NCBI RefSeq assembly: GCF_041261445.1
Contig: NZ_JBGCCU010000025.1
Location: 1 to 64,000, forward strand
DNA length: 64,000 bases
Reading direction: 5' to 3'
Source: Catenulispora sp. EB89
GTDB lineage: Bacteria > Actinomycetota > Actinomycetes > Streptomycetales > Catenulisporaceae
The translations under genes were made by a program, and so were the position numbers. Shown here in pieces: positions 47,192 to 47,756 of the stretch. Below the pieces are notes generated by a model. That model made no database searches, had not been told where the DNA came from, and saw nothing but the letters and a program-made list of their open reading frames with translations. Numbering within the stretch: the stretch's first letter is position 1; each line of letters starts with the position of its first letter.

Positions 47192-47632
47192 TCAGAACGC
47201 GAACACATCCCCGGTCGCCCTGGCCAGCCATCCGCCATTCGTGTACTTGTGCCCCCAAGCCACCCGCGCGCCCTCCCACGTCCCGGCCGCCCTGACCTCC
47301 ACCGGCGCCACGACCGCCGGCGCCAGCCACGTCGGATGCACCGACAGCGCGTCGAGGTTCCCGTGCACCGCCGCCAGCTCCTCGCACGCCGAGGTCGCGT
47401 CCTTCAGCCCGCCGAGGCCGTGGACCACCGGCGCCGCGCCGTCGCTCGCCGTGGACGTACACAGCAAGTACGTGACCTGCGTCTGCCCGCTCGTGGCGTC
47501 CACGCGCTTGAGGTGCAGACCGCCGAGCACGTGGACTCGGAAGCCGTCAGACGCCTGGGCGGCCCCGGCCCCGGTGGTGAGCGCCGCCGCGGAGAGCAGC
47601 GCGGTGACGGTGACGGCTGCGAAGCGGCGCAT
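47192..47632 (-). CDS. subtilisin-inhibitor-like (SSI) secreted protein lacking the reactive-loop disulfide
   Basis: 146-aa exported protein; signal peptide ends near residue 27 (AQA). The SSI fold is indicated by TYLLCTSTASDG..ACEEL (Cys58 and Cys83, the first disulfide), APVEVRAAGTWEGARV and the family-terminal GDVFAF. In classical SSI the reactive loop CPMVYDPV is pinned by a second disulfide to NEC. Here the aligned residues are Ala104-Pro-Ala-Val-Val-Ala-Pro-Val and Asn-Gly-Gly134, so both cysteines are missing together and the P1 residue would be Ala106. It may be a non-inhibitory or differently tuned homologue. Confidence 0.8.
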   Translation of the reverse strand: MRRFAAVTVTALLSAAALTTGAGAAQASDGFRVHVLGGLHLKRVDATSGQTQVTYLLCTSTASDGAAPVVHGLGGLKDATSACEELAAVHGNLDALSVHPTWLAPAVVAPVEVRAAGTWEGARVAWGHKYTNGGWLARATGDVFAF

Positions 47633-47722
47633 CGTCGATCCCTTCGTCAGAGGTGCCGCCGGCCCCGGATCGGCCGGCGGACAGCACCTCCCAGCGTCCC
47701 GCGAACCGCCCTCGCAAAAGCG

Positions 47723-47756
47723 GAAGACCCGCCGAATTCACTCTCGGCGGGTCTTC
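47723..47756 (-). terminator. terminator of sdh2 operon
   Basis: Perfect 13-bp stem GAAGACCCGCCGA / TCGGCGGGTCTTC with an 8-nt loop, 22 nt past the sdhB2 stop. Confidence 0.8.

Follow-up and report, generated by a model that had tools for sequence, protein, structure and literature searches.

SSI is a textbook canonical protease inhibitor, and the disulfide bond at its reactive-site loop is held to be necessary against cleavage of this loop. The window (the entire stretch of 64,000 nucleotides analyzed here, from Catenulispora sp. EB89) encodes an SSI-like protein which, according to an initial annotation, has lost both cysteines of this bond. Is this loss real, and if so, could the protein still act as a protease inhibitor? 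The gene and its surroundings comprise the following parts.

47192..47632, minus strand: coding sequence of the SSI-family protein, 146 amino acids plus stop, ATG start
47552..47632, minus strand: predicted signal peptide, residues 1–27, from sequence inspection; Ala-Gln-Ala precedes the mature start
47195..47551, minus strand: mature protein, residues 28–146, with an SSI fold in the AlphaFold2 model
47459..47461, minus strand: codon of Cys58, equivalent to SSI Cys35, retained (110-row alignment)
47384..47386, minus strand: codon of Cys83, equivalent to SSI Cys50, retained (110-row alignment)
47387..47458, minus strand: 24-residue stretch separating the retained cysteines, modeled as an extended beta-hairpin (AlphaFold2 and tally)
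47327..47338, minus strand: H99-P100-x-W102, directly N-terminal of the loop (110-row alignment)
47300..47326, minus strand: reactive-site loop P4–P5', residues 103–111, LAPAVVAPV (phmmer and alignment)
47321..47323, minus strand: codon GCG of Ala104, which replaces SSI Cys71 at P3 (alignment)
47315..47317, minus strand: codon GCG of Ala106, the inferred P1 residue (alignment)
47231..47233, minus strand: codon GGA of Gly134, which replaces SSI Cys101 (alignment)
47640..47646, minus strand: ribosome-binding-site-like AAGGG 5' of the ATG, from sequence inspection; mostly conserved in aligned leaders
47723..47756, minus strand: terminator-like hairpin in the gap from sdhB to the SSI gene (−28.9 kcal/mol, z −4.54)

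The window protein matches the SSI profile PF00720 with 47.9 bits (E 1.4e-12; Pfam cut-off 23.9), and a profile search identified its gene as the sole SSI match above this cut-off in the 11.9 Mb genome. The closest named record, from Catenulispora rubra DSM 44948, shares 95% identity. The signal-like N-terminus, with Ala-Gln-Ala ahead of the mature part, suggests that the protein is secreted.

The residues that the annotation had assigned to the loop and to the partner site proved to be correct throughout. A phmmer search against the PDB aligned residues 74–146 with SSI chains, with no ambiguity at either site: the loop pairs lapavvapv with mcpmvydpv of SSI, and the partner site pairs ytnggwl with fsnecem. 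Ala104 therefore corresponds to SSI Cys71, Ala106 to the P1 residue Met73, and Gly134 to Cys101, and the 110-row alignment gives the same assignments. The precursor contains two cysteines, Cys58 and Cys83, both aligned to the Cys35–Cys50 pair that is present in all 110 rows. Hence, one disulfide is gone while the other is intact. Since both remaining cysteines belong to this other disulfide, it is practically inconceivable that an alignment error hides a different cysteine pair around the loop. We can also exclude a hidden alternative disulfide, since each of the eight Catenulispora precursors has two cysteines.

AlphaFold2, provided with the mature window protein and 110 aligned SSI proteins, returned a confident SSI fold (pLDDT 94.7, pTM 0.86) that superimposes on 3ssi with Z 15.3 and 2.4 Å over 104 residues. 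The best matches among solved structures are SSI or its close kin, and the first unrelated chain follows at Z 3.5. A relative with all four cysteines (L014), folded as a control with the same sequence set, reached a pLDDT of 95.4. In the block around the loop cysteine (71–80), the mean pLDDT is 88 for the window protein versus 91 for the matching block of this control. The window model also contains a longer strand pair between the retained cysteines (mature residues 24–35 and 42–47), whereas the corresponding connection in L014 is shorter.

Comparison with SSI (3ssi, 2sic; PF00720) shows what has been preserved and what has changed. Both proteins have a signal-like precursor, the same fold, the Cys35–Cys50 pair, a loop in the same position with Pro at P2, and a C-terminal VFAF. 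In contrast, SSI contains Cys71–Cys101 and the window protein does not; the retained cysteines are separated by 14 residues in SSI and by 24 in the window protein; HPxW precedes the loop only in the latter; and P1 is Met in SSI but Ala or Ser in most Catenulispora proteins.

The annotation had proposed to look in other genomes for a subclass that shares this double loss, and such a subclass does exist. SSI genes are present in seven of ten Catenulispora genomes including that of the window, and all eight of these genes (one genome, G005, has two) lack both cysteines of the loop disulfide. At the Cys71/Cys101 sites, five genes have Ala-Gly, and the combinations Ala-Ala, Pro-Gly and Thr-Ser occur once each. 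All eight genes also space the retained cysteines by 24 residues, about 10 more than the 12–17 found in intact relatives from elsewhere. The Cys71–Cys101 clamp occurs in none of the eight Catenulispora rows of the 110-row alignment as opposed to 102 of 102 rows from elsewhere. In a tally of 198 distinct SSI domain pieces, the loop cysteine is retained in 190 of 190 non-Catenulispora pieces, and the partner cysteine in 186 of 186 such pieces long enough to include that site. Thus, a nonexhaustive search through these 190 pieces revealed no loss of the loop pair outside Catenulispora. A search at the level of the order had matched 379 of 391 genomes, and 30 of those loci were examined along with loci from further searches. 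The 190 pieces include a few irregular ones: L052 and L069 are two pieces of one frameshift-split gene, L156 and L224 have a broken C-terminus or are fragments, and L143 and L152 are incomplete pieces from neighboring genes of a single genome. The 110-row alignment omits near copies as well as L052, L069, L070 and L156. Judged from these alignments, the double cysteine loss is neither chance nor misalignment.

The remaining three Catenulispora genomes gave no SSI match, in different circumstances. In G006, the contig stops within the repeat-rich start of what is apparently the same gene behind sdhB, and the break (L190:1-414) falls within a tandem repeat at the gene start. A repeat-expanded start with Ala-rich and Pro-rich stretches also occurs in another Catenulispora precursor (L007), which is 211 amino acids long. 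In G009, neither an SSI nor an sdhB match was found, and in G010 sdhB is present but not followed by an SSI gene. Four sister-genus genomes returned no SSI match, and a tblastn search for plasmid carriage of the gene gave no match.

Two SSI-like proteins from another genus (L226 and L227; family f5, genus g12), which belong to the 190 pieces tallied above, have likewise lost both members of one pair. Their loss is the mirror image of that in Catenulispora: Cys35 and Cys50 are gone, replaced by Ser and Ile/Leu, and the loop clamp is kept. Both are encoded by second SSI-like reading frames beside a four-cysteine copy (L226:1294-1648, plus strand; L227:54-585, minus strand). By eye, no obvious signal peptide was found in L227.

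Our searches of an open-licence library found no published description of the Catenulispora cysteine loss. The available text of a fungal genome paper (PMC5238444) reports four conserved cysteines in 19 of 19 aligned SSI-like sequences and is silent on the Catenulispora loss. A table in a review (PMC4255298) lists a Catenulispora homologue as Sti-like, with 37% identity over 47% overlap and no synteny, and the accessible portion of that paper makes no mention of the cysteines of this homologue. Sti (SCO0762) is a developmental protease brake of Streptomyces coelicolor, whereas the Catenulispora gene adjoins sdhB.

To reconstruct the history of the loss, we calculated a maximum-likelihood tree from the 110 rows after removing both columns of the loop-disulfide cysteines. 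The eight Catenulispora rows form a single clade (support 100/94) whose stem measures 0.50 changes per column, so that one loss on this stem suffices. The deeper branches are unsure because of the small number of columns. The nearest row from outside the genus in this tree, L141, has both cysteines. The SSI gene adjoins sdhB in seven Catenulispora genomes. The Catenulispora SSI genes are under purifying selection: by a simple Nei–Gojobori count, dN is smaller than dS in 28 of 28 pairs, with ratios of 0.17–0.72 that are rough because of base composition.

The leader that follows the sdhB terminator and precedes the SSI start codon contains a conserved GC hairpin of 8 pairs (47657-47679, minus strand), with 98% of cells paired over seven sequences and one compensatory pair. 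The same leader also carries a conserved GGGACGCTGG-like stretch. Since the covariation of the hairpin does not exceed that of shuffled alignments (51 of 500 were as high), we regard it only as a pointer to a possible leader element or binding site.

The annotation had taken the joint loss of both cysteines as a sign of selected remodeling rather than random decay. The second half of this statement agrees with the single clade, the conserved sdhB locus and the excess of dS over dN. The first half does not follow from joint loss by itself, because a cysteine whose partner has disappeared can be lost freely or may be selected against. Better evidence comes from fixation across the genus, which shows that the variant has been retained, combined with novelties shared by the clade, namely HPxW, A-P-V after the loop and a 10-residue hairpin insert. 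Since the loss occurs in every Catenulispora copy examined and in none of the examined relatives from outside, we conclude that it represents a stable natural redesign, not a broken gene.

What might this redesigned protein do? Around the inferred reactive site, the Catenulispora rows share a recognizable frame: P4 is Leu or Met in seven of eight, P2 is Pro in seven of eight, and Ala, Pro and Val occupy P3', P4' and P5' in all eight. H99, P100 and W102 ahead of the loop are also invariant, and Trp135, beside the lost partner, occurs in six of eight rows. P1' is always hydrophobic, and P2' is variable. Conservation of the frame combined with variation at the contact positions P1, P1' and P2' is what one would expect if the protein were a canonical inhibitor. 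We rejected loop conservation as such as proof of function, since the identity within the loop (0.66, compared to 0.59 for the domain) is equaled by 24 of 107 ten-residue windows.

The annotation had also identified P1 as Ala and considered a change in specificity. Ala106 stands as the inferred P1 residue, and P1 is Ala or Ser in seven of the eight genes. This is not decisive for a shift in specificity, because some relatives with four cysteines also carry Ala (5 of 182) or Ser (2 of 182) at this position, where Met, Lys, Arg or Gln predominate. The eighth gene, the second copy in G005 (L012/L200), is diverged, also clamp-free and located away from sdhB elsewhere in the genome. Its loop reads TTSDLVAPV, and the Asp at P1 possibly points to a different target.

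Because the loop frame is conserved and the genes are under purifying selection, continued binding of a protease is the best explanation for these observations. We consider it somewhat probable that the window protein is a secreted, functional descendant of SSI with a canonical loop that is braced by other means. In this mechanism, a substrate-like loop with Leu/Met-Ala-Pro-Ala/Ser-hydrophobic at P4–P1' would be presented to one of the organism's own extracellular serine proteases, probably an enzyme with a pocket that accepts small P1 residues or a broad subtilisin. The loop-bracing disulfide would have been lost before the Catenulispora genes diverged, and the loop may instead be held by the prolines at P2 and P4', the invariant HPxW, in most cases Trp135, and the longer hairpin between the retained cysteines. 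The genome of the window contains 25 matches to the subtilase family (PF00082) and 8 to the trypsin family; therefore, targets exist in the same organism. Fifteen of the 25 PF00082 matches start only at profile positions 61–74, in long frames, and possibly represent acid proteases of the sedolisin type (S53). The alpha-lytic-type prodomain PF02983, which might have pointed to a target with a preference for small P1 residues, found no match in this genome, but the control likewise matched nowhere, and this negative therefore carries no weight.

Against a loop braced in this way, an SSI mutant without this disulfide reportedly became a substrate and was cut at the reactive site. According to the available text of PMC9623506, the reduced form of a designed subtilisin-inhibiting peptide, in which the loop disulfide is absent, is cleaved and does not inhibit. 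This latter observation would fit a temporary inhibitor that binds through its unclamped, substrate-like loop, is slowly cut at Ala106–Val107 and then lost, and in this way times an extracellular protease cascade. A precedent for such a cascade is described in the accessible part of PMC4255298, where a Sti-type inhibitor keeps the Streptomyces developmental protease cascade inactive. However, the loop is modeled with a confidence near that of the four-cysteine control (88 versus 91), and the clade has acquired conserved residues around the loop that suggest a replacement bracing, so that we consider a temporary inhibitor rather unlikely. It is equally doubtful that a clamp-free SSI serves as a used-up timer or that packing alone has replaced the covalent clamp.

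The hairpin insert could also be read as a new surface, through which a protein with a no longer inhibitory loop binds something else or inhibits another class of protease. Sermetstatin (4hwx, 4hx2, 4hx3) shares the SSI fold with the window protein (Z 12.0, 28% identity in the structural match) and has been solved in complex with a subtilisin and, in 4hx3, with the metalloprotease snapalysin. However, a dead loop would not need the frame that remains conserved here, and we judge this reading to be quite improbable. The genome with sdhB and no SSI gene behind it (G010, one in ten) implies that the gene may be dispensable, and the dN/dS ratios are moderately high, as might be expected of a decaying gene. 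Against decay stand the open reading frame, the conserved locus and the conserved loop frame across seven genomes, together with dN below dS in every pair, which make it very unlikely. We rejected a pseudogene or a sequencing error because of the agreement of eight genes from seven genomes.

A functional inhibitor with a loop braced by other means therefore remains our preferred reading. By keeping SSI without the loop bond, the genus provides a natural experiment on the escape of a substrate-like loop from cleavage, and the same experiment bears on whether inhibitors of this kind could act as timers in mycelial development. If the clamp were indeed replaced by packing only, these proteins would provide a natural answer to the question as to what the loop disulfide is for. 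Finally, the Catenulispora genes illustrate that "SSI homologue present" in a survey can mask an altered inhibitory site.
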